Below, piece by piece: positions 9,751-64,000 of a stretch of 64,000 nt of DNA. The position numbers were made by a program, and so were the translations under genes. The notes under the pieces were generated by a model, which did not search any database, was not told where the DNA came from, and saw only the letters and a list, made by a program, of their open reading frames with translations. Each line of letters starts with the position of its first letter. Positions within the stretch are counted from its first letter, which is position 1. This stretch comes from Flavobacteriaceae bacterium (lineage in GTDB: Bacteria > Bacteroidota > Bacteroidia > Flavobacteriales > Flavobacteriaceae), in NCBI GenBank assembly GCA_002723075.1, contig PBNJ01000022.1, forward strand, positions 1-64,000, in the 5' to 3' direction.

Positions 9751-9786
9751 TGTTTATAAATTTTAAATAGCTATTGATCTACATGT

Positions 9787-10891: not shown

Positions 10892-10897
10892 TGAAGG

Positions 10898-10971: not shown

Positions 10972-10982
10972 ATTTTCGCACG

Positions 10983-11014
10983 CAAATGTACGAGTTTTTG
11001 CTTTCTGACTCAAA
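10983..11014 (-). promoter_or_regulatory. Bacteroidota-type promoter for tRNA-His
   Basis: Minus strand TTTG (11014-11011) - 20 nt - TACATTTG (10990-10983), matching the TTTG / TAnnTTTG architecture, about 11 nt upstream of the tRNA. Confidence 0.65.
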
Positions 11015-11025
11015 AGAATTTTGTG

Positions 11026-11748
11026 CTATATCAAATCTGAAATCTGAGCAACGGCCAATTGGCGTTGAGTCGTGAAACCTTCTGCATAGCTAACACCAAT
11101 CATTCTCCCTAAATCCGCAGCTCTATTCTGAATGCTGTCCAAAAACTGCTGGCTGCTGATTGGGGTTTCTGGTTCATTCGATTTTTCATTATAGAATTGG
11201 GAACCAAAAGCAAGAATCGCTGCCATCTTTTTATCAATATATTCACTGATATCGACAACGAAATCACAAGGGTCATTGTTCCATTGCATGTAGTGATACA
11301 CCTGAGTAGGGCGCCATGGTTTTTGTGGCATACCATCTACAACAGTATCGATCTTACGAAGACCGCTTAAAAAACTGGCTTCATGAATAAGTAATGCTGC
11401 ACGTCCATGGTCAATGTGGCGATCCGTTTGCGCATTACAAAGGACCAACTTTGGTCTATATTTCCTAAGAATCTTAATGATCTCGAGTTGATTTGCTTCA
11501 TCGTTTTTAAAAAACCCGTCGCGGAAACCGAGATTTTCTCTCATGGACACACCCAATATGGATGCTGCTTGTTTTGCTTCTTTGTCTCTAATTTCAGCAG
11601 TGCCTCGTGTTCCAAGTTCGCCGCGAGTCAAATCAACAATCCCGACCTTTTTACCTAATGACACTTCCTTAGCAATCGTACCTCCACAGCTCAACTCCAC
11701 ATCATCGGGGTGTGCACCAAATGCCAATATGTCGAGTTGTTTTGCCAT
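11026..11748 (-). CDS. bshB1: Bacillithiol biosynthesis deacetylase BshB1 (PIG-L family)
   Basis: DILAFGAHPDDVELSCGGTIAKEVSLGKKVGIVDLTRGELGTRGT and DRHIDHGRAA motifs. Confidence 0.92.
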   Translation of the reverse strand: MAKQLDILAFGAHPDDVELSCGGTIAKEVSLGKKVGIVDLTRGELGTRGTAEIRDKEAKQAASILGVSMRENLGFRDGFFKNDEANQLEIIKILRKYRPKLVLCNAQTDRHIDHGRAALLIHEASFLSGLRKIDTVVDGMPQKPWRPTQVYHYMQWNNDPCDFVVDISEYIDKKMAAILAFGSQFYNEKSNEPETPISSQQFLDSIQNRAADLGRMIGVSYAEGFTTQRQLAVAQISDLI

Positions 11749-45500: not shown

Positions 45501-46310
45501 ATGAAATCATTTCAAGATTGTCTATCAACCTCTAACTCCTTTTTCCTTCTTGCTGGCCCTTGTGCGATTGAGGGAGAGGAAATGGCGATGCGAATCGCAG
45601 AGCATATGGTTAAGATCACAGAGCAACTTGGAATTCCTTTTGTATTTAAAGGGAGCTTTAAGAAAGCAAATCGCAGTCGTTTGGACAGTTTTATAGGCAT
45701 TGGAGATGAAAAAGCATTAAAAATTCTACAAAAAGTAGGTGTTGAATTCGGAGTTCCAACAGTTACCGATATTCACGAAGCCGATGATGCTGTAAAAGCA
45801 GCTGAATTTGTAGATGTCCTTCAAATCCCTGCCTTTTTGGTTCGTCAAACAGATTTGATCGTCGCCGCTGCGAAAACAGGAAAATACATCAACTTAAAAA
45901 AAGGACAGTTTATGAGTCCTGAAAGCATGCAACACGCAGTTGTGAAAGTAACTGATTCTTCTAATGAAAACGTCTGGATTACTGATCGCGGAACCATGTT
46001 TGGATATCAGGACTTGGTGGTTGACTTTCGTGGGATTCCTGTGATGAAAGCTTTCGCACCTACGATTTTGGATGTGACTCATTCATTGCAACAGCCCAAT
46101 CAGGTAAGCGGTGTGACAGGTGGACGCCCTGAAATGATTGAAACAATGGCACGAGCAGGGATTGCAGCTGGTGTTGATGGTCTGTTTATGGAAACTCATT
46201 TTGATACAAAACATGCAAAGAGTGATAGCGGAAATATGCTTCCGTTGGAACTCATGGAAGGTCTTTTAACACGACTTCACAAGCTTTACCAAGCTACTAC
46301 CGCATTGTAA
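45501..46310 (+). CDS. kdsA: 3-deoxy-8-phosphooctulonate synthase (KDO-8-P synthase)
   Basis: LLAGPCAIEGEEMAMRIAEHM, FKGSFKKANRSRLDSFIGIGDEKAL, DVLQIPAFLVRQTDLIVAAAKTG, FMETHFDTKHAKSDSGNMLPL. Confidence 0.96.
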   Translation: MKSFQDCLSTSNSFFLLAGPCAIEGEEMAMRIAEHMVKITEQLGIPFVFKGSFKKANRSRLDSFIGIGDEKALKILQKVGVEFGVPTVTDIHEADDAVKAAEFVDVLQIPAFLVRQTDLIVAAAKTGKYINLKKGQFMSPESMQHAVVKVTDSSNENVWITDRGTMFGYQDLVVDFRGIPVMKAFAPTILDVTHSLQQPNQVSGVTGGRPEMIETMARAGIAAGVDGLFMETHFDTKHAKSDSGNMLPLELMEGLLTRLHKLYQATTAL

Positions 46311-46379: not shown

Positions 46380-46779
46380 GGGGTCGACTGGTATTGACAG
46401 CGAGATAGATGTGACGGTAAGCAAGTCGAGCGCTGGACTACAGCTCGTAAATCTCATAGTACCACCATTTTAAATGGCGAGAATAACTACGCTCTTGCAG
46501 CCTAATCGACTGAATTATAGTAAGTCCAGGCCTTTGTCCCACTAGGTGGGAAGGTAAGATGTCTTGGTGCGGCCCTTGTTGACGGCAACACAATTCAAGG
46601 CACCATTAAAGTCAACATAGAAATCTTGGTGCTTCGACAGGATTTTAAATCAAAGAAGATAAGGTATGGATAGGCGGTTTTCGGTCAGTCTATATTCGAA
46701 AATTAAACGAAAACTAAACTTGTAGAAAGCAGTTGTGTCACTTGTTTGGACGAGGGTTCGATTCCCTCCGACTCCACCA
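46380..46779 (+). ncRNA. ssrA: tmRNA (one-piece), tag peptide GENNYALAA
   Basis: 5' GGGGTCGACTGG..., 3' GGTTCGATTCCCTCCGACTCCACCA; acceptor GGGGTCG/CGACTCC includes G3.U70. Tag ORF GGC GAG AAT AAC TAC GCT CTT GCA GCC TAA at 46476-46505. Confidence 0.97.
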
Positions 46780-46828: not shown

Positions 46829-48175
46829 TTAATAGATAAATACCTTCCACAATTTATAGCCACCAACAACGAGAGTTAAGCCTATAACTCCCTGAAGTAG
46901 TGTTGCAAATGTGTGGGTTCGATAGGCTTCTCGTACACTCATACCGCTCATCTGTGTGACAACCCAAAAATATGAATCGTTTGCATGAGAAACTGTCATA
47001 GATCCAACACCTAATGACAGAATAGCCCATACTTTACCCATTTCACTATCTAATCCCAACATGGGTAAAATAGGTAAGATGATGGAAGAAGAAGTAATAA
47101 TGGCAATTGTTGATGACCCTTGCGCAGTTTTAAGTAATGCGGCGATACAAAATGGAATTAAAATTCCAAGTTCGGTCAATGAAGAAAACCGCATAATATG
47201 ATCTTCCATTTGAATCGTTTGAATAATCGTAGCAAGTGCACCTCCCATGGAAGTTATCATAATAATTGGAAAGGCTTGAATCGTACCTCTTCGGAGAACA
47301 TCATACAAAAAAGTATTATGATTTTTAGGTTTCAATCTAAAAGAGAAGATAGCGCCGATAGCAAGTGCAATTGTAGGAGACGTTAACCACTTTAAGGCTG
47401 ATGTTAATCTCAGTTCTTGGTTGAGCTGTAGGGTAAACGCTCCAGAAACCATGAGAATAATTGGTAAAAGAATTGGCATCAATGTTTTGTATAAGTTGAA
47501 ATTATCACTATTCATTTGAACGGTTTGCTTCTCAAGTGAGGATACCTTTGGAGATAGTAAAGAACCCTCCCTTATGATGATATAATATCCGTACAAGCTG
47601 CCAATAAAAACTAAAATAAATGCCAAAATACCGCCAGCAATTACGAGGTAAAAAAGGTTAGTGACTTCCAGGTTAGCAGCGGCTACTAAGGGTCCAGGAG
47701 TCGGAGGAACCAGAACATGTGGAGCAAAAAGACCTGTTGATAGTGCAACAGTTAAACCCTTTAAGGAGACTTTAGATTGTTGAGAAATCGACTTGTTTAG
47801 TTGTGATAGTATAATAAAAGCAGCATCACAAAAAACAGGGATTGAAACCAAATACCCAATCACACCAACACCAAATGGCATTGGCAAGCGGCCTAGAAAA
47901 AACAAAATTCGCTTTGCTAAATAAACAGATCCCGAAGACAATTCAAGTGATGCACCAATCATTGTTCCAAAAAAGATAAGCAACCCAACGCCACTAAAAA
48001 TTTTCCAAAACCCTGTCAGTAAATACTCTACTGTAGTTGAAGAGTCATAACCGAGTGCCATAGCCATACAAATTGAAGCCAGAAACAATACCCAAAAAGG
48101 ATGAAGTTTTGTATAGCTTACCAAAATGATTAAGCAAACTATGACCAAGAATATGACTCCAACTGATGTAAACAA
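46829..48175 (-). CDS. GntP family gluconate/organic acid:H+ symporter
   Basis: About 12 TM segments; FAPHVLVPPTPGPLVAAANLEVTN, ALLKTAQGSSTIAIITSSSI, SVGANDSYFW-like motif (GSMTVSHANDSYFWVVTQMSGM). Confidence 0.88.
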   Translation of the reverse strand: MFTSVGVIFLVIVCLIILVSYTKLHPFWVLFLASICMAMALGYDSSTTVEYLLTGFWKIFSGVGLLIFFGTMIGASLELSSGSVYLAKRILFFLGRLPMPFGVGVIGYLVSIPVFCDAAFIILSQLNKSISQQSKVSLKGLTVALSTGLFAPHVLVPPTPGPLVAAANLEVTNLFYLVIAGGILAFILVFIGSLYGYYIIIREGSLLSPKVSSLEKQTVQMNSDNFNLYKTLMPILLPIILMVSGAFTLQLNQELRLTSALKWLTSPTIALAIGAIFSFRLKPKNHNTFLYDVLRRGTIQAFPIIMITSMGGALATIIQTIQMEDHIMRFSSLTELGILIPFCIAALLKTAQGSSTIAIITSSSIILPILPMLGLDSEMGKVWAILSLGVGSMTVSHANDSYFWVVTQMSGMSVREAYRTHTFATLLQGVIGLTLVVGGYKLWKVFIY

Positions 48176-48178
48176 ATC

Positions 48179-49303
48179 CTAAATTTTAAAAGTGCTAAAG
48201 ATTTCCACTAGCTTCATTTCGAGCAATTCTGCGGCTCGATCCATGGCCTCATCTATGCTCATGTTATCTTTTTTAGTTTGAAAAATTTGTAAGCTCGGAA
48301 ATTCAGTCAAATGCTTTTCCATCGCTTGTCCTGCCACAATATAAGTTAATACCTTATGTTTTTGGGCGATTTTTGCAATTCGATAGGGCAGTTTTCCGTG
48401 CATGCTCTGTTGATCAAAGCAGCCTTCACCTGTAAGCACTAGATCAGCTTTCTGGATTGCTGTCTCTAGATCAGTTATTTTTGAAAGTATATCGAAACCA
48501 TTCTCAATCTTTGAACCAAAAAAAGCATGCAATCCTGCCGATACACCTCCAGCAGCTCCCCCACTAACAAGAGGAAAAACATTACAATTCAATTCGTTGA
48601 TGAATAAAGTTCCAAAATGTTTGCTTCCATCCTCAAGTTTTTGAATTGTTTCATCATCTGCTCCCTTTTGTGCTGCATAAGTATAAGCAGCGCCTTTGGG
48701 ACCAGCTAAAGGATTTGTAACATCGCATGCGACAACCCAATTTGCCTGTTTTGCCAATGGGCTGAGTTGACTAATGTCAATTGATGCAATTGATGTTAAA
48801 TTTCCTCCGCATGGCTGAATTTCTCGTTTGTTGTGATTCAATAACCTTCCGCCCAAAGCAGTAAAAATACCGGCTCCCATATCATGAGTACTGCTTCCGC
48901 CGATTCCTAAGTAAATATTCTCACAACCCTTGTTAAGTGCATCTTTGATTTGTAGACCTGTACCTAAGGTAGATGTCACAAGTGGATTGCGTTCACTGGC
49001 ATGAAGTTGGGTAAGACCAGAAGATTGTGAGAGTTCAATCCAGGCACTATTACCATTTTCAAACAAAAAATATGGGGCATTAATTTTTTTTCCAATGGCA
49101 TTTACAGTTTGACAGTTAATGATTTGACCAGAAATCGAGTCATTTAAAACATCTAATGCTCCTTCTCCACCGTCTGAAAAAGGGAAAAGGGTACAAGTGG
49201 CTTTTGGAATAATGGACTGAAGAACACCATACATGACCTTAGCCACTTCTCGAGCACTTAGGCTCCCTTTAAAAGAGTCCGGAATGACTAGAACATGCAT
49301 CAT
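48179..49303 (-). CDS. Glycerate kinase (GarK/GlxK family)
   Basis: MHVLVIPDSFKGSLSAREVAKVM, PFSDGGEGALDVL, IYLGIGGSSTHDMGAGIFTALGGRLL, CDVTNPLAGPKGAAYTYAAQKGAD, SGGAAGGVSAGLHAFFGS. Confidence 0.95.
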   Translation of the reverse strand: MMHVLVIPDSFKGSLSAREVAKVMYGVLQSIIPKATCTLFPFSDGGEGALDVLNDSISGQIINCQTVNAIGKKINAPYFLFENGNSAWIELSQSSGLTQLHASERNPLVTSTLGTGLQIKDALNKGCENIYLGIGGSSTHDMGAGIFTALGGRLLNHNKREIQPCGGNLTSIASIDISQLSPLAKQANWVVACDVTNPLAGPKGAAYTYAAQKGADDETIQKLEDGSKHFGTLFINELNCNVFPLVSGGAAGGVSAGLHAFFGSKIENGFDILSKITDLETAIQKADLVLTGEGCFDQQSMHGKLPYRIAKIAQKHKVLTYIVAGQAMEKHLTEFPSLQIFQTKKDNMSIDEAMDRAAELLEMKLVEIFSTFKI

Positions 49304-49386
49304 CCATTATTTAGTAAGCTAAAGATAAAAAAATTAACATCCTGATCTTTAAGTCAAAAATCCTCGAACAAGAATTTCTGTTTAAT

Positions 49387-50928
49387 TTAGTGAAAGATGA
49401 CATGTAAGGCTATCAGGCTAAATACAAGAGCCCAACCTAAATTTTCAATTTTTTTATTGGCTGGAAAACATAAAGAATTAAAAGAGTTTAGCCGACCCTT
49501 ACTCGCAAAAATTGCAATAATAAATCCAGTTATAATTACAAGAAAAGCTCTGACAAAATAATTTAATTCTGGAAAAAAAAGATGCAGAAAAATATTTGTT
49601 GGAAAAGTGATGACAAACGCAATTAAAACTGCTTTTTCGTTGGGTTTAATCAGCATGACAGCACTACATATCAAGACAACTATGCCACAATTAATATAGT
49701 ACCGCAAGTTGTTTAGTGTATGTGTAAATGCAGAGCTCGGCGAATTGAATTTAACATCAAGTAAAATCAATCCTGTCAAGATTGCGGTAAACAAGGCAAA
49801 CAAAATTGCCTTTCGCCCTGCTTGGATTTTATCTCGGTCTGATGCCCCTCTATGGATATATTTGGCATATATATCTGTAGACCATAATGTTGCTAATGAA
49901 TTAAATGTTGAATCAACAGTACTCATCAAAGATGCAAATAGTCCACATAAAATGACTCCTTTAACACCAACAGGCAGATAGGTTGATACAAGATATGGAA
50001 AAGCCATATCTGGTTCAGTTAGTGAATCACCCAAAAGTCCATAAAGAGCAATACCAGGTATGACTATGATTATCGCCATAAAATATTTTAAGCATCCACC
50101 TGCAAGCAATCCAATTTGAGCGTGACGAATATTTTTGGCTGCAAGAGCACGCTGCATAACCGTTTGATTTGCACACCAATAGTTGATGTTCAAAAAGAAC
50201 AAACCAAATAAATGAGTCCATGGCAAGGTTGGGTGATCGATCGGCAAGTGTAAATGCATCATTTCTGGTGTTTTGACATAGAGTTGCTGCCAACCCCCGA
50301 GATGATGAACAGCTGTCAAACACACGATGATACCGCCAATTAACAATACACTGAATTGAATAAGATCGGTTTTAACCACAGCACTCAACCCGCCAAAATA
50401 GGTGTATATCGCAGAAAATATTCCCAAAAGGAAAATTAAAATTCCAATCCGAACTACACGATTTGGATGTATAAAGTAAAGTTCATGTTCAAATACCAAA
50501 TCAGCGGCATATGCACCCCAAAATAATGCAGCTCCAAGCGTAATTGTGGCAAAAAGAGAGATGTTCGCAAGTGAATAAAATAAGGCAATACGCTCCCCTA
50601 ACTTTTTGGAGATAAATTCTGTGATTGTAGTGATTTTTTCTCTCAAAAACATCGGAGCAAAAATGAAAGCGCCAAGCAAAATGCCTTGCATAGCATTGAT
50701 TTCAAGGTTTGCTTGTGCCAGTCCGTACAAATATGCAGAGCCCATCATCCCTAAAAACTGATAGCCTTGAATATTTGTGGCTATGGTAGACAAGGCAACT
50801 GAGTACCAACGCAAGCTACGAGAGCTTAAAAAGTAAGCATCTGCAGAGCTATTCGCACTTACTTTAGATTGCAAAGCAATCACCATGATCAGTAAAAAAT
50901 AAATAATTACTATTATAAAGTCGATCAT
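49387..50928 (-). CDS. Sodium:solute symporter (SSS) family transporter
   Basis: SSRSLRWYSVALSTIATNIQGYQFLGMMGSAY; NYWCANQTVMQRALAAKN; FASLMSTVDSTFNSLATLWSTDIY. Confidence 0.92.
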   Translation of the reverse strand: MIDFIIVIIYFLLIMVIALQSKVSANSSADAYFLSSRSLRWYSVALSTIATNIQGYQFLGMMGSAYLYGLAQANLEINAMQGILLGAFIFAPMFLREKITTITEFISKKLGERIALFYSLANISLFATITLGAALFWGAYAADLVFEHELYFIHPNRVVRIGILIFLLGIFSAIYTYFGGLSAVVKTDLIQFSVLLIGGIIVCLTAVHHLGGWQQLYVKTPEMMHLHLPIDHPTLPWTHLFGLFFLNINYWCANQTVMQRALAAKNIRHAQIGLLAGGCLKYFMAIIIVIPGIALYGLLGDSLTEPDMAFPYLVSTYLPVGVKGVILCGLFASLMSTVDSTFNSLATLWSTDIYAKYIHRGASDRDKIQAGRKAILFALFTAILTGLILLDVKFNSPSSAFTHTLNNLRYYINCGIVVLICSAVMLIKPNEKAVLIAFVITFPTNIFLHLFFPELNYFVRAFLVIITGFIIAIFASKGRLNSFNSLCFPANKKIENLGWALVFSLIALHVIFH

Positions 50929-50931
50929 AAA

Positions 50932-52080
50932 TCAAGATCGTTTAGCTGTACCTAGCGGAGTTGAGGGGGTATTGATTGGAACTCTTCCAAAAAATTTTGG
51001 AAGTGAAACCGACCGTATTCGTGGAAGTACATATTTTGCAAAGAGAGTGCATTCTTGTTCATGTGGATAACCTGAAAAAATAAAAGATCGAATTCCCATT
51101 TCCATATATCTTTCAATTTTTGAAACTACTTGATCAGGATCTCCTACTATTGCAGCTCCACAACCAGAGCGAGCCAACCCAATTCCAGTCCATAAATTGG
51201 GTTCAACATAGTGATTATCGTCTGCTTCCTCGCGAAGTTTTGCCTGTCTGAATACACCCAAAGAACTAGCATCTTGAGCTCGATTTCGTATGGATGTTCC
51301 AAATTTTAAATCTAGTTTTGAAAGTAAACTCCCAGCGTAGGCACGGGCTTCTTTTTCAGTTTCTCGAACAATCACATGAACTCGTAAACCGAAAACAACA
51401 CTTCTATCATAATCAGATGCTTTTTGCGTCATATTGCTCATCAAAACTTGCAGTTTTTTTTCTGTTTCTGGCCACATCAAGTACACATCACAATGTTCAG
51501 CACATAAATCAACTCCATGCTCAGAATATCCTCCAAAATAAAGTAACGGCCCCCCGTTTTGCTGGTAAGGTTTTACTGGATCCGTTGGTAGATTTAGTTT
51601 ATAGTATTTTCCATGAAAATCGATACTATCCTTCATCCACGCTTGCTTTAGGATTTGTATAACTTCTCTTGATCTTGCATATCGTTCTTTTGAAGAAAGT
51701 ATATTTCCGGGTAAATCTGATGAAATTATGTTTATTGTTAGGCGTCCCCTGAGCATATGATCCAATGTAGCAATAGTTCTTGCTAACATCGGAGGGTGTA
51801 CTTCTCCACAACGAACAGCAGCTAGAAAATTGATTTGTTGTGTAATATTAGCCATTCCAGCAATAAAAGAAAGGGTGTCTTGGCCAACTTGATAAGATGA
51901 GGGGCAAAGTACATTTCGGTAACCCAAGGAGTCAGCTCTCTTTACTATGTTAGATGTATTTTCCCAACTGCTTTTAAACAAAGGGTTTCTATTGCCTAAA
52001 TAGTCGTCGTCTCCATCACAGAGTGGAGCGAACCAAGCTATTTCAGCTCCATTAATTTTTTGATTTAAATTATTTATCAA
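50932..52080 (-). CDS. LLM-class flavin-dependent monooxygenase, alkanesulfonate monooxygenase (SsuD)-like
   Basis: INFLAAVRCGEVHPPMLARTIATLDHMLRGRLTINIISSDLPG, VFGLRVHVIVRETEKEARAYA, EPNLWTGIGLARSGCGAAIVGDPDQVVSKIERYMEMGIRSFIFSGYPHEQE parallel SsuD segment by segment. Confidence 0.88.
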   Translation of the reverse strand: MINNLNQKINGAEIAWFAPLCDGDDDYLGNRNPLFKSSWENTSNIVKRADSLGYRNVLCPSSYQVGQDTLSFIAGMANITQQINFLAAVRCGEVHPPMLARTIATLDHMLRGRLTINIISSDLPGNILSSKERYARSREVIQILKQAWMKDSIDFHGKYYKLNLPTDPVKPYQQNGGPLLYFGGYSEHGVDLCAEHCDVYLMWPETEKKLQVLMSNMTQKASDYDRSVVFGLRVHVIVRETEKEARAYAGSLLSKLDLKFGTSIRNRAQDASSLGVFRQAKLREEADDNHYVEPNLWTGIGLARSGCGAAIVGDPDQVVSKIERYMEMGIRSFIFSGYPHEQECTLFAKYVLPRIRSVSLPKFFGRVPINTPSTPLGTAKRS

Positions 52081-52333
52081 TGAATAATTCTAGTAAAAAT
52101 TTTATTTCCTTATGGTTCATAAAAGTAAACTTTTATGAAGAATTTAATTCATTGTTTTTAAAATTGTTTCGAGATGCTTTTTAAAATTTTAAATAAATCT
52201 AGAATAGAAGAGTTATTTTAACTCCCCTATCCCACAAATTATTTCTGGGAATAATATTTATTCTTGGGTATAACTTTTTAGCAAACAGTTAAAGCCTGCA
52301 CGAAATAATTCTATTTCTTAGGGGTTATTTTAT

Positions 52334-55300
52334 TTATTTTTTTTGAAATTTAATGGAAGAGCTTGTTGTGTTATCAGTTAGCCTTAATACATACATTCCA
52401 CTGTTTAGGAATTGAAGATCTATTTTAAATTGATCTTTGATCATTGTATTCTTTGAAAAATACACAAGTCTACCCTGGAAATCATAAATCTTAATTTGTG
52501 CTTCGAAAGTTTTATTTGTAAGAATAGTTAGTTCTGACTCTACTGGATTAGGAAAAACTTCAAATTCGAACTGATTTAGTCTAGAACTTGACAATGATAA
52601 TGGTTCTAAATCAGCAACCCACAAACCTCTACCGTATGTTGCTGCATAAAGTTTATTTAAGGACGGATTAATTTCAAGCTCAGTTATTCTAACATTTGGT
52701 AAATTATTGCTAACGGAAGACCAAGTATCTCTACTAGATGAATAATTATAAAACACCCCATAGTTCATTCCTAAAACTAAATTATTCCCATGAAAGGTAA
52801 TTGCAGAAGCTGAAAAATCTGGTAAGTCATTGTTCAAAATTTCCCAAGTATTCCCCCCATCTTGTGAATGAATAACTTTGTTTGTTCCAGAAACAGCAGC
52901 AGCAATATGTTTTTCGTCCTCGGGGTGAATTGCAATAGCGTTTATGTTTCCGGTTAAATCTGGTAGTGAAATTTCTACCCAATCACTCTGTCCCTGATTT
53001 TCAGTTTTATACATCAGATCATTGACAGATATATAAATCGTTTGGTTATTACTTGGAGCGATAGACATTACGTCAATGTTTGAGGAGAAGGTTTGTGAAA
53101 TTTTTATCCATCCCTCCAGATTAGTATTTGAAAAAACCTCGTCGTAGGCCACATATATTTTATCTGAAACCTCAGGGTCTTGTTCAAAAGGAACGATCCA
53201 ATTTGCACCATTTTCAGAACCTGCCTTATCTAAGGGTGGGTTAATGTACTGATATGTTTGTCCCGCATTATTTGTTCGATAAAGGCTTCCAAATTGAGAT
53301 GTTCCATAAATCTTGTTAGAATCATCTTTGTCAATAAATGTTTCCATTCCGTCTGCACCCAACCAATCGCTCCATACACCATTATTTAAAACTGAGGTGC
53401 CATTGTCCTGCGAGCCCCCTGTTATCATTTCTTGATTTCCCTTTGAAACCCCAATTTTATAAAATTGTCTGATTGATAGACCAGTTGAGAGATCCTCATA
53501 ATAATTAGATGAGATAGTATTGGGTTGACTGGCTTTAAAAACTCCCCCATCAGAACCTACAAATAAATTGCCATCTATAAATTCAGTGATATCAATGTCA
53601 GCATGACAGTATCCAATATTTTGATTGAGAGCATTTGCAGGAACCCATTGAGAACTTATTTGGAAATTATTTCCACCATCATTTGACAACCATGACAAAA
53701 TACCACTCATGTAGATAATATTTTCGTTGTCAGGGTTTATCGTTATGTCCATGTCTCTAGGCGCTTGTCCACTGTCGTCATCAGCTGTTGAGGAATAACC
53801 AAAATAATTATTATCCCCGTGATCAATTTTCGCAAAAGAATTCGCTGCGTTTTCTGAAGAATATAATCCCCCAAACCTTCCATTTTTTTCTTCCAAAACA
53901 TAAACCTTGTTAGAGTTAGCATTTGAAACGCCAATCATTTTAGCTCCAGTAGAAAAATTACCCGCCAATAGTAATTCTAATTGCTCAAAACCTTCTTCAA
54001 AAAAAACAGTATTTGAATTATTATCATGAATTAAAACTTCATCAAGTGTAATCCCACGACCGAAATATGATTTTGCCTGGAAAGCTATTTGGAAAGTCGT
54101 ACTATTACTAAACAAACTCGATAAATCAAATGAGTAAGAAGACCAATCCTCAGCTACCTGAGTGATTAGCTCTCCGAGTTGCCAATTTTCTGACTCGCTT
54201 GTTTTCCAATACCAACTCAATTCGTCAGTATCACCCTCCCAGTTCGCATTTGAATATTGAAAAGATAAAATAGGATTGATCGCTGAACTCAGATCTATTG
54301 CTTTACTTATCAGTAAAGCATGGTCTCGATTAAAATTTCCACTAAAATAATATGCTAGACCCGTACCAGCGTAGGGTGTAACACTTCCATTTTGATTTTC
54401 GTTACTATAGATCCATTTATTATTTCCCTGTATAATGTCTTGCGTCCATGTAGAATTCTCAATGGTTAAATCAGGCTCGCCTCTAATTTCAAATGTTATG
54501 CCATTATCAATAGACTTAAAAAACGAGTTTCCAGTAGCATATACTACAGAGGGATCTCCTGGTTTAAACTCAATATCAAATCCATTTGTGCAATCAGAAT
54601 GAATCCTTGACCAGTTTTGACCAGAATCTTCAGATCTAAAAATCCCATAATTTTCAACTGTCGCATACATTACGTTCGTAGTCGTTGGGTGAATGAGAAT
54701 TTTATTCACTCTGTGATAGGACGAATTTCCCAACAAACTAGCTTGATTAATCAATGTCCAAGTTGAACCAGCATCTACTGACTTGTATATTCTTCCCTCA
54801 TTACTTCCCCAATAAAAAATATTTGAATCATCTGGACTTATTGCTAAAGACCAGACATCAATATTTGATAGATTATCAGTTAATGAATTCCAATTGTTTC
54901 CTGAATCATTCGTTTTCCAAATTCCACCAGTTGGACTTCCGACAATAAAATTATCCGTGTCATTGAATGCAAGGGAAGTAATTCTCCCAACTCCAGGATT
55001 CCATCCTTGGGAATTTGAATCATTGTAATAATCTGGACCTAAATTGGTCCAGGTAATCGTTTGCTGACTTGGCTGTGGGTCTTTAAAATTTGTTTTATAA
55101 TTATACTGATGAAGAGCATTGACATAATTGCGATTTGAGATAACTCCTCCCTTTTCGTCCGCATCAATTTTGGCAAAATATAACCATCTCTGAAAAAACT
55201 TGTTTTCTTTATCACTTTTTACTTTTTTGAGATACTCATTAGCTCTTTCTTCAATAACTTTTACATTACTCTCTTCAATGATTAGTTTTTCAATAAATCC

Positions 55301-55354
55301 TTGAGCATTAATATCAGTAAATATCAATAAACAAATTAAAGGAAAGTACCTCAT
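52334..55354 (-). CDS. Secreted BNR/sortilin-type beta-propeller protein with T9SS type A C-terminal sorting domain
   Basis: GSPTGGIWKTNDSGNNWNSLTDNLSNIDVWSLAISPDD, IYKSVDAGSTW repeats; C-terminus FEVFPNPVESELTILTNKTFEAQIKIYDFQGRLVYF...LNSGMYVLRLTDN...SIKFQKK. Confidence 0.9.
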   Translation of the reverse strand: MRYFPLICLLIFTDINAQGFIEKLIIEESNVKVIEERANEYLKKVKSDKENKFFQRWLYFAKIDADEKGGVISNRNYVNALHQYNYKTNFKDPQPSQQTITWTNLGPDYYNDSNSQGWNPGVGRITSLAFNDTDNFIVGSPTGGIWKTNDSGNNWNSLTDNLSNIDVWSLAISPDDSNIFYWGSNEGRIYKSVDAGSTWTLINQASLLGNSSYHRVNKILIHPTTTNVMYATVENYGIFRSEDSGQNWSRIHSDCTNGFDIEFKPGDPSVVYATGNSFFKSIDNGITFEIRGEPDLTIENSTWTQDIIQGNNKWIYSNENQNGSVTPYAGTGLAYYFSGNFNRDHALLISKAIDLSSAINPILSFQYSNANWEGDTDELSWYWKTSESENWQLGELITQVAEDWSSYSFDLSSLFSNSTTFQIAFQAKSYFGRGITLDEVLIHDNNSNTVFFEEGFEQLELLLAGNFSTGAKMIGVSNANSNKVYVLEEKNGRFGGLYSSENAANSFAKIDHGDNNYFGYSSTADDDSGQAPRDMDITINPDNENIIYMSGILSWLSNDGGNNFQISSQWVPANALNQNIGYCHADIDITEFIDGNLFVGSDGGVFKASQPNTISSNYYEDLSTGLSIRQFYKIGVSKGNQEMITGGSQDNGTSVLNNGVWSDWLGADGMETFIDKDDSNKIYGTSQFGSLYRTNNAGQTYQYINPPLDKAGSENGANWIVPFEQDPEVSDKIYVAYDEVFSNTNLEGWIKISQTFSSNIDVMSIAPSNNQTIYISVNDLMYKTENQGQSDWVEISLPDLTGNINAIAIHPEDEKHIAAAVSGTNKVIHSQDGGNTWEILNNDLPDFSASAITFHGNNLVLGMNYGVFYNYSSSRDTWSSVSNNLPNVRITELEINPSLNKLYAATYGRGLWVADLEPLSLSSSRLNQFEFEVFPNPVESELTILTNKTFEAQIKIYDFQGRLVYFSKNTMIKDQFKIDLQFLNSGMYVLRLTDNTTSSSIKFQKK

Positions 55355-55402: not shown

Positions 55403-56710
55403 TCAATCCAATATCGGCGTCTGACTGACTAACTGCATATCTGGAAGGTTTGAGATATCGTACTGATATAAGTCGGTATCGCCCACGATCAAAGCATTTG
55501 GATAATCAATAATTACATCATAGGCAAACTGTATTAGGGTGCTATTTACGATGTTTGGTTTTGTAGGAGTACTCACATCAACAATTTTGATGCCTGCTGT
55601 TCCATCACAGATAATGAGGTGATCGTCATAAATCCCCAAACCGTGAGGGTTAAACATATCTTTTCTAGAAATTAAGGAGAGATTTTGAGGGTCTTGAATG
55701 TCAATAATTTGAAGCTCATTGACGTCCGTAAAGCAGTTGGTCCCTCCCCGCAGCGTCACATAGGCATAATTAATGTCTGCCACAACAGGATCACAGCTTC
55801 TCATATGTTCAATTCGGTTGATATAGTCAGGGTCAGCAGCATCTGAAACGTCATACACAAGCATACCATTGACTGAGCCTACAAACAACAAGTCATTCAA
55901 TTGAAATAAGGTTTCGGCCTGGGTTTGGGTATTTTTTTTGATCCATGGGCTTGGCTTGTAATCGCTTCCGATTTGAAATAAAACCAACTCATTCAAATTA
56001 ATCGTATACAAATAGCCATTAATCGGCAAAAACCGCGTCATAGATCCCGCTGTGCTTGTTTGCTGGACGCCATCTATATTTCCATCTTCAGAGGTAAGTG
56101 CTAAGTCTGGTATCGCACCATCATTATAATAACGATAGTCGTACAAACTACGTTTTTCACGTATAGTTTCAGTTTGCCAATCCACAACAATTCCCTTGGT
56201 TTTATCGGGATATTCACGATATTCAACATATGAGTTGGGCTCTTCCCAAATCTCAAAGGGAAAGTTCCAAAAGGCATCGTAATCAAATACATTTTCTATT
56301 GTGTAGCTCTCTTTAAACTTCGGAGATAATACATCGCGGATATCAAACACTGCCAAAGAAGAAAACATATCGACATAAAGATGATCATCGATAATAGCAA
56401 GGTCCAAATTTCCAGGGATAGATAGGAACGAAAGGTTTATCGGATTTGAAGAATCTGTATGATCAACGATATGAATTCCTTTCATCGGTTCATTGACTAA
56501 TACATAATTTTCATAAGTTATAATTTTACCCAAAGAAGTCTGTTCTTTGGGTGCTTCAACAACCACTTGCTCTGCAACCGAAGATGCCGTTTCATAGACA
56601 GGTGTAACGTAGGTCACGTCCACCCATTCTTTGTTCGTGGTATTGATGCTGTCCCACTCACATGAAGCGGTAAAGAAAATAGCAATTAAAAATAAAAGCT
56701 GTGGCTTCAT
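55403..56710 (-). CDS. LVIVD-repeat beta-propeller lipoprotein
   Basis: Repeated GIHIVDHTDSSNP, LAVFDIRDVLSPK, MLVYDVSDAADPD, LQIIDIQDPQN, IKIVDVSTPTKPN; lipobox-like FFTASCEW. Confidence 0.85.
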   Translation of the reverse strand: MKPQLLFLIAIFFTASCEWDSINTTNKEWVDVTYVTPVYETASSVAEQVVVEAPKEQTSLGKIITYENYVLVNEPMKGIHIVDHTDSSNPINLSFLSIPGNLDLAIIDDHLYVDMFSSLAVFDIRDVLSPKFKESYTIENVFDYDAFWNFPFEIWEEPNSYVEYREYPDKTKGIVVDWQTETIREKRSLYDYRYYNDGAIPDLALTSEDGNIDGVQQTSTAGSMTRFLPINGYLYTINLNELVLFQIGSDYKPSPWIKKNTQTQAETLFQLNDLLFVGSVNGMLVYDVSDAADPDYINRIEHMRSCDPVVADINYAYVTLRGGTNCFTDVNELQIIDIQDPQNLSLISRKDMFNPHGLGIYDDHLIICDGTAGIKIVDVSTPTKPNIVNSTLIQFAYDVIIDYPNALIVGDTDLYQYDISNLPDMQLVSQTPILD

Positions 56711-56770
56711 CAGATCTTCGGTTTACAAAATTTTATCAAATACCATGCCGCAACACCTGCAATAAATGTG

Positions 56771-58783
56771 TTATTCTGGGTAGACTTCGCGTAAATGATA
56801 GGCGTTAATCAATTTCTCAACCAAGACTTTTTTGATACGTTCAATTTCACGCAAACTGATGTCTGCCTCAGCAAATTGATTTTCCTCCGCTTGTTCTTCA
56901 ATAATTTTTTCCACGAAGTTTGCGATTCCCTCTGCTGTGGGTTCTTGTAAACTTTTTGATGCTGCCTCAACACTATCTGCCATCATCAAAATTGCAGTTT
57001 CTTTGGAATATGGCTTTGGCCCAGGATAGCAAAACAAAGCTTTATCTATGTTTTCATCTTCTTTTTTCGCCTTATGGTAAAAATAACGTGTAGGTGAGGT
57101 CCCATGATGAGTGCGGATAAAATCAACAACACGGTCTGGCAAATTATTTTTCTTGGCAATTTCAATACCTTCCGTGACATGATTCAAAATTAGGCGACTA
57201 CTCTCAAACGGATCAAGCTCGTGGTGAGGATTATAATTGGTGGATTGATTTTCACTAAAATACAATGGGTTATTCATTTTTCCAATGTCATGATATAGGG
57301 CCCCGACTCGAACAAGTAAGGCATTTGCATCAACCTCATTAGCAGCCGCCTCAGCTATATTTGCAACCTGCAATGAGTGATGAAATGTGCCCGGCGCCTG
57401 CTCTGAAAGAGTTCGAAGTAATTTCGAATTGGTATCTGAAAGCTCTAGAAGGGATAAATCAGAAACTAGCCCAAAAATCTTCTCAAACACATAAACCAAA
57501 GGGTGTACAAACAGTATTCCCAATCCGTTGATCAATAAAAATCCAAGATGATCCAACGACACGGTGGATAAGTTTGCTTCGTATATTAAATGAAAAGACA
57601 CATAAGTAATTACATAAGAAGCAACAATAAGTACTACAACAACAAAGAGGTTAGCACGCTTATATAAATCCGTGACTGATAAGGTTGCAATTGCGCCAGC
57701 TACGAGCTGCATAAACAAAAAGGAGAAGTCACTCGGAACCATAAAGCCAATGAGCAACAAGCCCATTAAGAACACAAAGAAGGCTAAACGTGTATCAAAA
57801 AAGGTTTTGAGTAGCAATGGAACAATACATAGTGGCACTACATACACAAAGTTGATGTTGTTCGCCATGGCCAGTTTGATAGATGCCACCATAATTAAAA
57901 TTGTAGAAAACACAAATACCAGCTTGGTATTATTTTCATACACCAATGGGCGATAGCGCCATAGAAACAAAAAAATGAGAAAAATAATTAGAGATACAAG
58001 AATAGAGTATCCGATCACGATTGACTGTTCGCTTGACGCCCACAAGTCATTTAGGTATTCAACTTTTAAGGAGCTTAAGATTTGATATCGCCTTTGATCG
58101 ACCACCTCCCCTTGCGCAATGATGCGCTCTCCTTCGGCAACCACCCCGCGAGTAGGAAGAATAAGTGACAGTGATTCTTCTAACTTTTGTCTTGTTAGGA
58201 TAGAGTCAAGCACAAGGTTTGATTCAATATATTCGTTCAAAATCAACCGATTAGAGGCATTAGCGATAACACTATCCAAAAGAGGACTTTGATTTGAAAA
58301 TGGAAGAGAATCATTTATTTTCAAATCTGAAAATATAAGTTTTTGTGCGCTGTTGTCTTTAACGAGTAAAATTGGCTTTGCGCTTTGCACAGCAAACGAA
58401 GCATCGACTAGCCCAGGTGTGTAGAGACTAGTCAGGTATCGATCCCATGCCCGTAGCAAAACCGATGAAGAAATCGGAGTTCCCTGTTGTCGAATCCACT
58501 TTCTCGTTCGTTCAAAAGATCGTTGTTCAGCCAAAGTGTCTCTTGTAAAGATAAGCGGGCTTTCTTGCTCTATCGCAAGACGTTCATTAGTAAGCTCTTC
58601 CCCAGATTTAGCAATTGGGAAATCAAAAGGAGCGAGAAGTGTTTCGTATGGCCAGGGCTTTCCCGTTTGGAAACTGTACTTAAACCCTCCACTTCGTGGA
58701 AATAGATAAACCAAACAGACGGTCGTGATCAAAAAAAGGATGATCTTATAAATAAACGACTGGTGTTTGTAGAAAAATTGCAT
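56771..58783 (-). CDS. 7TM-HD (7TMR-HDED + HDIG) phosphohydrolase, PgpH-like c-di-AMP phosphodiesterase
   Basis: 7 TM segments then EQAPGTFHHSLQVANIAEAAANEV, RVGALYHDIGKM, RTHHGTSPTRYF; start at MQFFYKHQSF. Confidence 0.88.
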   Translation of the reverse strand: MQFFYKHQSFIYKIILFLITTVCLVYLFPRSGGFKYSFQTGKPWPYETLLAPFDFPIAKSGEELTNERLAIEQESPLIFTRDTLAEQRSFERTRKWIRQQGTPISSSVLLRAWDRYLTSLYTPGLVDASFAVQSAKPILLVKDNSAQKLIFSDLKINDSLPFSNQSPLLDSVIANASNRLILNEYIESNLVLDSILTRQKLEESLSLILPTRGVVAEGERIIAQGEVVDQRRYQILSSLKVEYLNDLWASSEQSIVIGYSILVSLIIFLIFLFLWRYRPLVYENNTKLVFVFSTILIMVASIKLAMANNINFVYVVPLCIVPLLLKTFFDTRLAFFVFLMGLLLIGFMVPSDFSFLFMQLVAGAIATLSVTDLYKRANLFVVVVLIVASYVITYVSFHLIYEANLSTVSLDHLGFLLINGLGILFVHPLVYVFEKIFGLVSDLSLLELSDTNSKLLRTLSEQAPGTFHHSLQVANIAEAAANEVDANALLVRVGALYHDIGKMNNPLYFSENQSTNYNPHHELDPFESSRLILNHVTEGIEIAKKNNLPDRVVDFIRTHHGTSPTRYFYHKAKKEDENIDKALFCYPGPKPYSKETAILMMADSVEAASKSLQEPTAEGIANFVEKIIEEQAEENQFAEADISLREIERIKKVLVEKLINAYHLREVYPE

Positions 58784-58863
58784 AGCTGTCTTGTCTGTCA
58801 AAAATACGTTTTCTCCTTTTCTTTCGCCAATCGATTCCAATTTGTTTGTATTTTTGGCATATG

Positions 58864-59610
58864 CAATATGGAATTTGCCCACTGAGTATTGTCCCTTTAC
58901 GGGCTGAACCAAAAAATACTAGCGAACAAACTTCACAACTGCTCTACGGAGAATTTTTTACTATTCTGGACCTTCAAAAATCGTGGTCAAAAATTCAGAA
59001 TGAAGGGGATGGATATGAAGGTTGGATCAACAACAAGCACTTTCAGTTTATTGATAAAAGCATCTTTCAAAAACTCCAAGCTACCAAAAAGAAATATGCA
59101 GTAGAGTTGGTTGACTTCATTTGGAAAGATGACGTTATCCTCTTCCCCACCCCGATAGGAAGTTTGGTGAGTTCAGCCCAAAACCTAGGGCATAGGTTTG
59201 AGGGAAAAGAGCTGGTTGAAACCAAATCAAAAAATAAGCTTGTAAGTACAGCACTTCATTATCTGAACAGCCCTTATCTATGGGGTGGCAAATCACCTTT
59301 TGGTATTGATTGTTCTGGTTTTGTCCAATGTGTATATCAACTCCACGGAATCCAGCTACCACGAGATGCCTATCTTCAAGCTACGCATGGTGAAACCCTT
59401 GGGTTTATTGACGAAAGTGAACCCGGAGATCTGGCATTTTTTGATGATCAAGAAGGGAAAATCACCCATGTCGGGATCATAATGCCTGATTACCATATTA
59501 TTCATGCATTTGGGCAAGTGAGAATCGATCGTTTAGATCAAACTGGCATTTTCAACAACTCACTCAATACGCACACACACAAACTTCGAGTGATAAAAAA
59601 AATCTTGTAG
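58864..59610 (+). CDS. C40 family (NlpC/P60) peptidase with N-terminal SH3-like domain
   Basis: SPFGIDCSGFVQCVYQLHGIQLPRDAYLQATHGE, GDLAFFDDQEGKITHVGIIM: Cys/His catalytic motifs. Confidence 0.92.
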   Translation, partial: QYGICPLSIVPLRAEPKNTSEQTSQLLYGEFFTILDLQKSWSKIQNEGDGYEGWINNKHFQFIDKSIFQKLQATKKKYAVELVDFIWKDDVILFPTPIGSLVSSAQNLGHRFEGKELVETKSKNKLVSTALHYLNSPYLWGGKSPFGIDCSGFVQCVYQLHGIQLPRDAYLQATHGETLGFIDESEPGDLAFFDDQEGKITHVGIIMPDYHIIHAFGQVRIDRLDQTGIFNNSLNTHTHKLRVIKKIL

Positions 59611-59626
59611 AAAAAATGAACAGAAG

Positions 59627-60883
59627 CTATTGACCTAGGGCTTCGAGCTTTTCTTTCATCTTTTTAAAGTTAGCAGCATCGCCAATCGTGCCAAAAATAT
59701 TTTTTAGTGTAGTCAATGCTTCAACATTTGAAGGATCGATCTCAGTAAGGTTTTCTAATACTGGGACAGCTTCTAAAAACAACCCTTCCCTTTGTTTCTG
59801 CAATTGTTCGTATTTGATGTTATCGGCGCGTGAATTCCCCAACGAGTTCATTTTATCAACCATTTCAGGTTCACCGTCCAAAATCAATGCTGCCAAGTTG
59901 AGGTATGATGCAGCATATGATGGATCTAATTCGATAGCACTCTCGTAATACGAGCGGGCTTTAGCTCGATCACCTTGTTCAGCGGTTATCACACCAAGAT
60001 TGAAGTAAAGAATGTGATTGTTTGGATCTTTTTCGATTGCCTCTTTCATCAAATCAGCAAACTTTTGCTTGTCACCCAATTGAATGTATAAGTTTGCCTC
60101 TGTAAGAATCAGACCAACGTCTAAAGGATTTACTGCGCGAGCATCTTTAATTGCCCCGATCGCCAAATCATTTCGTTTTTGCTGAACATAGATCAGTGCA
60201 ATGTTTTTGATGATTTCTGGAAGTTTAGATTCTGTCATTTCCGTTCTAAAATTCGAATACTCTTTCAATTTTTTGAAAAGAACATAATTTTCCGCAGACA
60301 ACTCCACCTCTTCACCTGTTTCGTTTTCGGTTGCATAAAACTTTTCGACAGAACCCGTATAATCCAAATCTCTAAGTTCTTGGTAATAACCAAGAGCTCG
60401 ATCATAATCACCTCCATTTACCGCACTAGAAGCAGCATAATACAAATAATCTAAATTTTTCTCTTTGTCAATATTATAAACCAAAATTAACAGGTCTGCA
60501 GCCTCGGTAAAATTCTCATTCTGATTTTCCTGAATTGCTTTGTTAATCGCTTCTACACTAAGATCGTTCATCAATTTGTCGATCTCAACCGTGTGTTTAG
60601 AAGATCCGTTTTCGGTTTCGAGTTGTCGAGCAGAATCAAAAGCAGCAAAAGAGGCTTTAAAATCTTTTTGACCACCATAGATTTTACCAGCTAAAAACTG
60701 ATATTGCGCTTGATATTTAAGTTCTGAATCTTGTACAACTGGTTGCAAAGACAACAACTGATTCAAAGCAGTATCATAATCTTGACTCTCAACGAGTTTA
60801 ACTACTGCTTTAAGTTCTTTTTTTTGTCCATAAACGGAGAGAGAAAGAATTAAAATAAATGGAATAAAGGTTTTCTTAAACAT
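59627..60883 (-). CDS. Exported tetratricopeptide-repeat protein
   Basis: MFKKTFIPFILILSLSVYGQ signal peptide; TPR units such as NHILYFNLGVITAEQGDRAKARSYYESAIELDPSYAASYLNLAALI. Confidence 0.9.
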   Translation of the reverse strand: MFKKTFIPFILILSLSVYGQKKELKAVVKLVESQDYDTALNQLLSLQPVVQDSELKYQAQYQFLAGKIYGGQKDFKASFAAFDSARQLETENGSSKHTVEIDKLMNDLSVEAINKAIQENQNENFTEAADLLILVYNIDKEKNLDYLYYAASSAVNGGDYDRALGYYQELRDLDYTGSVEKFYATENETGEEVELSAENYVLFKKLKEYSNFRTEMTESKLPEIIKNIALIYVQQKRNDLAIGAIKDARAVNPLDVGLILTEANLYIQLGDKQKFADLMKEAIEKDPNNHILYFNLGVITAEQGDRAKARSYYESAIELDPSYAASYLNLAALILDGEPEMVDKMNSLGNSRADNIKYEQLQKQREGLFLEAVPVLENLTEIDPSNVEALTTLKNIFGTIGDAANFKKMKEKLEALGQ

Positions 60884-60907
60884 GGTATTTCGTTTGTTGG
60901 TTAATCT

Positions 60908-63412
60908 TTAAGATTCATTTTCAGTTTCAGTTGTCATATCGACCTCAATATCTTCAACGTCTTCAATATCTTCATCATCTTTCAGCACTTTTGCAACAGC
61001 AGCGATCGTGTCATCATTGCGAAGGTTAATCAGGCGGACCCCTTGGGTTGCTCTACCCATGACTCTAAGGCTTTCGACCTCCATACGAATGGCAATACCT
61101 GATCGGTTGATGATCATCAAGTCGTCGCTGTCTGAAACATTTTTGATCGAGACAAGACTTCCAGTTTTATCAGTTATGGAAATGGTCTTGACTCCTTTTC
61201 CTCCACGATTGGTCATACGGTAGTCCTCTAATTTAGAACGCTTTCCATAACCATTCTCGGAAACAACAAGTATATCGGAATCCATATCATTAACAGAAAC
61301 CATGCCGATTACCTCATCTGCATCATTTGCCAATCGGATACCACGCACACCTGAAGCGTTACGACCCATGGGTCTAGTTTTGTTTTCTTCGAAGCGAATC
61401 GCCTTTCCAGACTTTACCGCCAGAACAACTTGTGACTGACCTGTCGTGAGTTTAGCTTCCAACAAAACATCTCCATCCTTGATCGTTATGGCATTAATTC
61501 CATTTGATCGGGGTCTTGAGTATTGCTCAAGAGAAGTTTTTTTCACTTGACCCTTTTTTGTCGCCATGATGACAAAGTGAGAATTAATGTACTCCTCATC
61601 TTTTAAGTCCTGCGTGCATATAAATGCCATAACCTTATCGTCCTGTTCAATATTGATCAAGTTTTGAATGGCACGGCCTTTTGATGTTTTAGATCCTTCT
61701 GGGATCTCAAAAACGCGAAGCCAAAAACATCTCCCTTTTTGGGTAAAAAACAACATATATTGGTGATTGGTACCAACAAATAAATGTTCTAAAAAGTCCT
61801 CATTTCTTGTCGTTGATGCTTTTTGACCTACACCTCCACGGTTTTGTGTTTTGTACTCTGCCAAAGGAGTCCGTTTAACGTAGCCCGCATGAGAAATGGT
61901 AATCACAACCTTTTCATCTGGAATCATATCCTCAATACGGAAAGACCCACCAACAAAGTTGATTTCTGATCGGCGATCATCACCATATTTTTCAACAACT
62001 TGATTGGTTTCTGTTTTGATGATAACCATACGGCGATCTTTGTTGTCAAGAATATCCTTCAAATCTTCAATCGTGGATAACAGCTCGTCATATTCTGCAC
62101 GTAATTTGTCTTGTTCGAGCCCTGTCAACTGGCGTAAGCGCATTTCAACAATAGCTTTGGCTTGAACTTCAGAAAGACTAAATCTTGCGATTAACTTTTG
62201 TCGGGCTTCTTCTGCATTGGTTGACGATTTGATCAATGCGATGACCTCATCAATATTATCAGAAGCGATAATCATCCCTTGCAGGATATGTGCTCTTTCT
62301 TCGGCTTTTTTGAGTTCAAAAGTTGTTCGGCGTACAACAACTTCATGACGGTGGTCAATAAAATGTCCGATGAGTTGCTTGAGGTTCAACAATTCCGGAC
62401 GCCCATTTACCAATGCAATATTGTTGACGCTAAAAGAAGATTGTAAAGAGGTGTACTTGTACAACATATTGAGAACAATATTGGGCACAGCGTCTCTTTT
62501 GAGGATGTAAACGATTCTCATCCCTTTTCGGTCAGACTCATCACGAATGTTTGAAATCCCATCGATTTTTTTGTCGTTAACGAGCTCGGCAGTTTTTCGA
62601 ATCATCTCAGCTTTATTAACTTGGTAGGGGATTTCTGTCACAATAATACACTCACGACCATCAACCTCTTGAATATCTGCTTTAGCTCGAAGGACTACAC
62701 GACCTCTTCCAGTATGGAATGCTTCCTTGACACCTTCGTATCCATAGATAATTCCGCCAGTTGGGAAATCAGGAGCTTTTACATGAGTCATCAACTCGTC
62801 AATTGTGATTTCAGGGTTATCGATTTGTGCAATAATCCCTTCAGCTACTTCGCTAAGATTGTGTGGCGGCATGTTGGTTGCCATACCTACAGCAATTCCA
62901 GATGCACCATTGATGAGCAGGTTAGGTACTCTGGTTGGAAGAACCGTTGGCTCCTTTAGGGTGTCATCGAAGTTGAGCTGATGATCGACAGTATCTTTGT
63001 CAATATCAGCGAGCATTTCCTCCGAAATTTTTTGCATACGTGCCTCGGTATATCGCATGGCTGCTGGACTATCCCCATCAATTGAGCCAAAGTTACCCTG
63101 GCCATCAACCATCAGGTAACGCAAGCTCCAAGACTGAGCCATACGAACCATAGTGTCATAAACCGAGCTATCGCCATGTGGGTGATATTTTCCCAGTACT
63201 TCTCCAACGATACGTGCAGATTTTTTGTAGGAACTACTCGAACGTACACCTAAATCGTGCATACCATACAAAACACGGCGGTGAACAGGCTTCATTCCAT
63301 CACGAACATCTGGTAGAGCACGTGATACGATGACAGACATTGAATAATCAATGTATGACGATTTCATTTCATCCTCAATGTTGATTGGGATTAGCTTATC
63401 TTCGGTGGACAT
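60908..63412 (-). CDS. gyrA: DNA gyrase subunit A
   Basis: [98 protein letters not shown]. Confidence 0.98.
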
Positions 63413-63630
63413 AAAATACTATGTAATTTTTTAAGTTTTTAAGGTAACGCTAATGTACTGATTCGTCAGGTATTTACTGTTTGATAATTTGATGTTTTTA
63501 AACAAATTTATTAACACATTATTTAAAAAAATCACTCAATTTTTATTCTTTTTTTCATTGGATTTATATATTTTTTTTGTTGATTAGCATAACAATGACT
63601 TCCTTGTGAAGTCAAAAAAGAAAATTTAAT

Positions 63631-64000
63631 ATGGATGATAACTTTTCTCCACGTGTAAAAGACGTGATTAGCTACAGTAAGGAAGAGGCACTTCGACTAG
63701 GCCATGACTTTATTGGTACCGAGCATCTAATGCTTGGCATATTACGTGATGGAAGTGGTAAAGCCATCTCTATTTTAAGTGCTTTGGAAATAGATTTAGA
63801 TTATTTGAGACGAAAGGTTGAGATATTGAGTCCTCCCAATTCCTCACCGGATCAAATGGCGAATAGCAAGAAGAATTTGCACTTGACTCGCCAAGCCGAA
63901 CGTGCCTTAAAAACAACTTTCCTAGAAGCTAAGCTTTTTCAGAACCCATCCATCAATACGGCGCATTTACTCTTGTGTATTCTCCGAAATGAAAACGATC
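63631..64000 (+). CDS. clpC: ATP-dependent Clp protease ATP-binding subunit ClpC, N-terminal part (truncated by window end)
   Basis: MDDNFSPRVKDVISYSKEEALRLGHDFIGTEHLMLGILRDGSGKAISILSAL ... INTAHLLLCILRNEND: Clp N-domain. Confidence 0.9.
   Translation, partial: MDDNFSPRVKDVISYSKEEALRLGHDFIGTEHLMLGILRDGSGKAISILSALEIDLDYLRRKVEILSPPNSSPDQMANSKKNLHLTRQAERALKTTFLEAKLFQNPSINTAHLLLCILRNEND

Follow-up and report, generated by a model that had tools for sequence, protein, structure and literature searches.

Which reactions do four adjoining genes of a marine flavobacterium carry out, and do they form one pathway? The genes lie in a 64,000-nucleotide stretch of DNA from a Flavobacteriaceae bacterium (contig PBNJ01000022.1, assembly GCA_002723075.1; hereafter the window) and are listed here in transcription order:

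50932..52080, minus strand: SmoC-like LLM-class flavin-dependent monooxygenase (382 amino acids; PF00296), candidate sulfoquinovose/hexose-sulfonate monooxygenase
49387..50928, minus strand: SSS-family symporter of the SGLT/vSGLT branch (513 amino acids; PF00474), candidate Na+-coupled sulfosugar importer
48179..49303, minus strand: glycerate kinase of the GarK/GlxK type (374 amino acids; PF02595, TIGR00045), second module
46829..48175, minus strand: GntP-family permease (448 amino acids; PF02447), candidate D-glycerate importer with a GrtP-like role by analogy, second module

The genes are separated by 3, 83 and 3 nucleotides (46829-52080; coordinates of the open reading frames, ORFs), short gaps that suggest co-transcription, and all four Pfam families (Bac_luciferase, SSF, Gly_kinase and GntP_permease) score far above their cut-offs. 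ORFs, Pfam and NCBIfam thus agree with the strand, spacing and families given in an earlier prediction made from this sequence (the original prediction), which had assembled the four genes into a single pathway from a three-carbon (C3) sulfonate to glycerate. We propose a different reading, to which we assign a probability of about 0.6: the cassette joins two two-gene nutrient modules, one for the uptake and desulfonation of a sulfosugar and one for the uptake and phosphorylation of D-glycerate, and is carried as cargo at a variable site adjoining the tmRNA gene.

The monooxygenase provides the main clue to the first module. Its best solved relatives are 7oh2 (E = 1.7e-149; 58.6% identity) and 7olf (E = 1.2e-148; 58.4%; both over 373-374 residues), which we take to be the sulfoquinovose monooxygenase SmoC of Rhizobium and Agrobacterium, with MsuD (1.5e-66; 37.1%) and SsuD (7e-59; 35.3%) far behind. 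The SsuD equivalog model TIGR03565 gives 267.6 bits against a cut-off of 518.2, so that the earlier label "SsuD-like" holds for the superfamily and fails for SsuD itself. According to the available text of PMC8234197, MsuD binds its sulfonate through W195, R225, R296 and A/S299. These residues correspond to W203, R233, R304 and C307 of the window enzyme, in which the Trp/Arg/Arg set of the SsuD/MsuD family is therefore intact; C307 lies in a SmoC-type loop reading RSGCG, compared to RGG(A/S)G in SsuD and MsuD, and both 7oh2 and 7olf also carry Cys at this position. Neither an ABC importer nor SsuE adjoins the window gene, a further difference from the SsuD/MsuD systems. Identity (35-37%), model score and loop motif together rule out an SsuD/MsuD alkanesulfonate assignment, while the conserved binding residues support the predicted type, a flavin monooxygenase that cleaves C-S bonds, in line with the original prediction.

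To place the enzyme more finely, we used 48 alignment columns in which five sulfoquinovose (SQ)-type rows all agree and SsuD and MsuD share another residue. The window enzyme is SQ-like at 32 of these, Ssu-like at 9 and neither at 7. Because all 14 other SmoC-type rows from Bacteroidota score 26-34 SQ-like columns, this measure places the family rather than sulfoquinovose itself. A tree likewise splits SsuD and MsuD from all SmoC-type rows, the window included, with a support of 100/100 (rows L008 and G019, of about 25% identity, were dropped, and L006, whose gene reads in three frames, was not in the set). Within the SmoC-type group the branching is poorly resolved (open at 6 of 19 inner branches, with the Novosphingobium row as a long branch), and we therefore draw no conclusion about the direction of transfer.

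Gene clusters of the sulfoquinovose monooxygenase (sulfo-SMO) route in other bacteria, to whose members the window monooxygenase is 51-61% identical, offer a separate line of evidence. In Rhizobium SL42, whose protein adjoins 7olf in the tree, the cluster holds a Gfo/Idh protein, GntR, the monooxygenase, an aldo/keto reductase (AKR), a flavin reductase and a TRAP transporter, and the Ruegeria cluster has the same make-up. The Ruegeria AKR matches 7bby (5e-122), presumably SmoB, and the Ruegeria Gfo/Idh protein matches 8qc2/8qc3. The latter are NAD+-dependent sulfoquinovosidases, which the available part of PMC10755693 describes as near-universal in Roseobacter sulfo-SMO clusters. The two clusters and the 8qc2/8qc3 match independently support a SmoC reading of the monooxygenase family. 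By sequence, the window protein would be a SmoC-type flavin-dependent sulfoquinovose monooxygenase, insofar as the reference chains are the enzymes we take them to be.

The second gene of the module is a transporter whose type points to a hexose. Its best solved matches are vSGLT of Vibrio and human SGLT1/2 (E = 8e-50 to 1e-40), followed by the next SSS type at 4e-20, and its residues N52, Q57, E76, N247, Y250 and K281 align with vSGLT N64, Q69, E88, N260, Y263 and K294. Taking the galactose contacts of vSGLT to be Q69, E88, S91, N260, K294 and Q428, four of the six are kept (Q69, E88, N260 and K294); S91 is replaced by A in one alignment and by N in another. Eight near-clade rows (the window and seven monooxygenase-linked symporters) have this pattern in common except for A/S variation at 91, while unlinked paralogs from the genus differ at several of the listed sites. 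These similarities place the symporter in the putative SGLT (hexose) branch, a class that to our knowledge has not been connected with sulfosugars.

We examined the neighborhoods of the monooxygenase in other Bacteroidota to see which genes travel together. A relative at E<=1e-60 occurs in 7 of 395 sampled genomes of the phylum, including the window's own. In all seven close loci (L003, L004, L005, L006, L007, L048 and L049; about 65-75% identity), a symporter gene directly follows the monooxygenase, which bears out the earlier suggestion that a transporter partners this enzyme. Three of the seven (L005, L007 and L048) also have an adjacent AKR, 36-43% identical to that of Ruegeria, and in L049 an iron-containing alcohol dehydrogenase (7337-8827), a possible stand-in for the AKR, directly precedes the pair. 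Glycerate kinase and GntP are found in none of the seven within the DNA examined (fewer than 800 bases upstream in L003). Since these loci all keep the pair and none adds the glycerate genes, we regard monooxygenase plus symporter as the core unit; the four-gene neighborhood, which the original prediction proposed to look for in other genomes, does not recur in them. The eight distant loci (L011, L012, L013 and L050-L054; about 51-56% identity) are more varied: three have a symporter of another SSS type, and in four an amino-acid permease adjoins the monooxygenase gene or lies close to it (two annotated, two recognized by eye). Two of them (L012 and L051) hold a sulfite dehydrogenase-type gene, which fits sulfite release by this monooxygenase family.

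Individual loci show further features. In L006 (Cryomorphaceae MED-G11), the monooxygenase at 9995-11150 reads in three frames next to an intact symporter, reflecting either decay or sequence errors. L003 carries GH29 and GH95 fucosidase-family genes near the pair (3540-5345 and 9135-11489), L004 has the same types, and a GH95 gene lies in the Emticicia plasmid locus L011 (9811-12417). The homologs at L012 8950-10116 and L052 9147-10313 carry Phe where the second Arg of the sulfonate site would be and adjoin an amidohydrolase, SusC/SusD-like genes and an amino-acid permease, as well as the sulfite dehydrogenase in L012; perhaps they act on a different sulfur compound.

The last two genes of the cassette resemble a system with a role of its own. 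The kinase scores 366.9 bits against TIGR00045 (cut-off 168.45) and matches 3cwc (E = 4.7e-75) and 1to6 (E = 6.7e-48), so it is probably a genuine glycerate kinase, as originally called. With the GntP-family permease 3 nt away, the pair has the composition of the Shewanella grtP-garK operon, in which, according to the available text of PMC2996990, loss of grtP abolished growth on D-glycerate. In Haemophilus, HI0091 and HI0092 belong to these two families as well (PMC3938079, available part). The arrangement differs from that of Shewanella in that the kinase gene precedes the permease, the pair is joined to a sulfonate module, and no SdaR-type regulator was recognized by eye among the window ORFs, for which no scan was made. 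Among 29 GntP loci from the phylum sample (one of which, L083, has no readable GntP ORF), a glycerate kinase is adjacent in two, L064 (the closest GntP, 46%) and L092. No monooxygenase is present in these 4-kb loci or in a 14-kb stretch around L064, which argues that the pair stands alone elsewhere. By analogy, the GntP protein of the window is a candidate D-glycerate importer.

In the model that we favor, the SGLT-like symporter would import a free six-carbon sulfosugar, most likely sulfoquinovose, together with Na+. The monooxygenase, with O2 and FMNH2 supplied by a flavin reductase encoded elsewhere, would cleave the C6-S bond to yield sulfite and 6-dehydroglucose, which an AKR encoded elsewhere in the genome would reduce to glucose. 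On our best reading, this module would act as the sulfo-SMO pathway does in its first step. Separately, GntP would bring in D-glycerate and the kinase would convert it to 2-phosphoglycerate, an entry into lower glycolysis.

How closely does the window match known sulfo-SMO systems (also sulfo-ASMO; SmoC/SquD with SmoB/SquF), described in Agrobacterium, Novosphingobium and the Roseobacter clade? The likeness lies in the identity and sulfonate site of the monooxygenase and in the AKR adjoining it in three of its seven close relatives. The differences are the Bacteroidota host, an SGLT-like SSS importer in place of ABC or TRAP, and the lack of a co-located reductase, flavin reductase or sulfoquinovosidase. 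The available text of PMC13372026 defines a sulfo-SMO cluster by SmoB and SmoC within a 10-ORF window. In a whole-genome search, the two AKRs (PF00248) of this genome lie on contigs C12 and C16 and its one PF01613 flavin reductase, 35% identical over 150 residues to that of Ruegeria, on C8, whereas the cassette is on C22; the window is therefore not a sulfo-SMO cluster under this definition, while L005, L007 and L048 have AKR and monooxygenase side by side. No PF01613 or PF00248 protein is encoded on C22 (SsuE-type and other reductase families were not scanned), consistent with the earlier remark that the window lacks a flavin or semialdehyde reductase.

Several observations weigh against the proposed sulfosugar module. 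Neither an AKR nor a flavin reductase lies beside the cassette. The C16 AKR and the C8 flavin reductase are candidate partners only: the former matches 7bby best (2.3e-53) with YdhF-type chains nearly equal, shares 41% identity with the AKR linked to the monooxygenase in L007 and 34% with that of Ruegeria, belongs to a differently composed sugar cluster, and is present as well in a congener (G012) where the monooxygenase was not found. The names SmoC and SmoB are those we give to these chains, the PDB titles being alkanesulfonate monooxygenase and methanesulfonate sulfonatase for 7oh2/7olf and aryl-alcohol dehydrogenase for 7bby. The symporter has Asn at the position of vSGLT Q428. The genome, at only 84.67% completeness, holds no GH31 and no molybdenum cofactor (Moco) sulfite oxidase, and no GH188-like gene lies near the cassette (GH188 was not searched genome-wide); with neither GH31 nor a nearby GH188-like gene, only the free sugar would be usable. 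Finally, position 302 of the monooxygenase is Leu, where the SmoC rows and most Bacteroidota rows have Arg and four have Lys. This Leu is common only to the window, L003, L004, SsuD, MsuD and L006 (broken frame), and because it replaces the SmoC-type Arg, the substrate may have drifted.

Such drift is the basis of one alternative, in which the sub-clade of the window, L003, L004 and L006 would use a hexose sulfonate other than sulfoquinovose, for instance sulfofucose or another 6-sulfo-hexose. All four share the Leu, L003, L004 and L006 have no linked AKR, and GH29 and GH95 are alpha-L-fucosidase families found near the pair in L003 and L004. A single loop position is thin evidence, however: elsewhere the sulfonate site resembles that of SmoC, and the glycoside hydrolase genes may be unrelated neighbors, with none in the window's own cassette. 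We regard this alternative as a minority possibility.

Both remaining alternatives would unite the four genes in one pathway. In the C3 route of the original prediction, the monooxygenase would cleave sulfolactate or dihydroxypropanesulfonate to tartronate semialdehyde or glyceraldehyde, a further enzyme would form glycerate for the kinase, and the SSS or GntP protein would import the C3 compound. The common strand and short gaps favor such unity, and so does distribution: monooxygenase, kinase and permease are each found in the same one of 13 genomes of the genus, the window's own, and elsewhere in the genus the symporter has only paralogs of <=36% identity. A C3 substrate nevertheless sits poorly with a monooxygenase nearest to SmoC-type enzymes and a hexose-type symporter, the window shows no recognizable enzyme that would form the glycerate, and the kinase and permease, absent from all seven close loci, are explained by their known role in D-glycerate use. 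We consider the C3 route quite unlikely; the cassette is probably a variant on known sulfosugar and D-glycerate routes and not a new way of degrading C3 sulfonates. Alternatively, a glycerate-linked sulfosugar, such as a sulfoquinovosyl-glycerate-like glycoside, could be split, with the sulfosugar going to the monooxygenase and the glycerate to the kinase. Besides the proximity of the four genes, this has a precedent for an aglycone kinase beside the monooxygenase in Novosphingobium L014, which pairs alpha-glucosidase, AKR and monooxygenase with glycerol-3-phosphate dehydrogenase and glycerol kinase. But the cassette lacks a glycosidase, the genome has no GH31, a dedicated GntP points to free glycerate, and we know of no report of such a glycoside as a nutrient, which makes this idea highly improbable.

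Photosynthetic organisms produce sulfoquinovose, a six-carbon sulfosugar of plants and algae, on a very large scale. According to two reviews, in their available parts, its breakdown through the monooxygenase occurs mainly in alpha- and beta-Proteobacteria, to which a genome survey from 2026, likewise in its available part, adds Actinomycetota and Spirochaetota. A literature search found no report of the route in Bacteroidota, although most subscription papers were outside its scope, so unpublished status is not established. Extending the two-module reading to the phylum, we tentatively suggest that Bacteroidota may desulfonate sulfosugars oxidatively by means of an undescribed minimal two-gene unit: an SGLT-type Na+ symporter would feed a SmoC-like monooxygenase, the reductase would be supplied in cis (AKR or iron-containing alcohol dehydrogenase) or in trans, the unit would be swapped at sites such as the tmRNA gene, and the substrate of the window's sub-clade may be another sulfosugar. 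If true, such a route in Bacteroidota, with its Na+-coupled sugar symporter, would bring major degraders of marine organic matter into this part of the sulfur cycle, and surveys requiring SmoB and SmoC within ten genes would overlook the window's version.

Where in the genome does the cassette sit? The window lies on contig C22 of a 1.69 Mb genome of a small marine bacterium of the flavobacterial type. The cassette was not found in the 12 other genomes of the genus; at 58-86% completeness, absence from any single congener is weak evidence, and the joint pattern of absences is stronger. A kdsA-like gene (45501-46310) is present in 11 of the 13 genomes, with the tmRNA gene next wherever the contig continues, and the DNA past tmRNA is different in each of five congener loci examined:

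46380..46779, plus strand: tmRNA gene of the window; DNA past its 3' end varies among genus genomes
L058, past tmRNA: serine recombinase next to tmRNA, large genes
L059 (congener G002), past tmRNA: TonB receptor
L060, past tmRNA: sugar catabolism with a TRAP-type transporter (labeled by eye)
L061, past tmRNA: carbohydrate-active-enzyme-like genes (labeled by eye)
L063, past tmRNA: other genes (labeled by eye)

On either side of the cassette lie genes typical of the genus, in the order seen in G002, those of the far side (55403-64000) matching L059. This synteny rules out a chimeric contig and, with the varying content past tmRNA, indicates that the cassette occupies a variable site on a sound contig. 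The site is probably an integration hotspot across the genus. No integrase was recognized by eye among the ORFs of the window's version, and the window holds no attachment-site copy of the tmRNA 3' end of >=14 bases; the 12-base matches, one of which falls within tRNA-Glu, look fortuitous.

Pattern and hairpin scans gave no convincing promoter or terminator between or within the four genes, and the consensus promoter pattern of Bacteroidota matched seven times against 4.87 expected, with no match in the cassette. One hairpin lies just upstream:

52200..52234, minus strand: possible terminator hairpin of 16 pairs, separating the monooxygenase gene from the gene for a secreted protein upstream of it

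With four terminator-like sites in the region against 4.2 expected, this hairpin is weak; if it is a terminator, it could separate the cassette as its own unit. The secreted protein beyond it (52334-55354) has sortilin-type repeats and a Por_Secre_tail sorting domain. It has no match in the five congener loci at the tmRNA site and is possibly part of the same variable segment.

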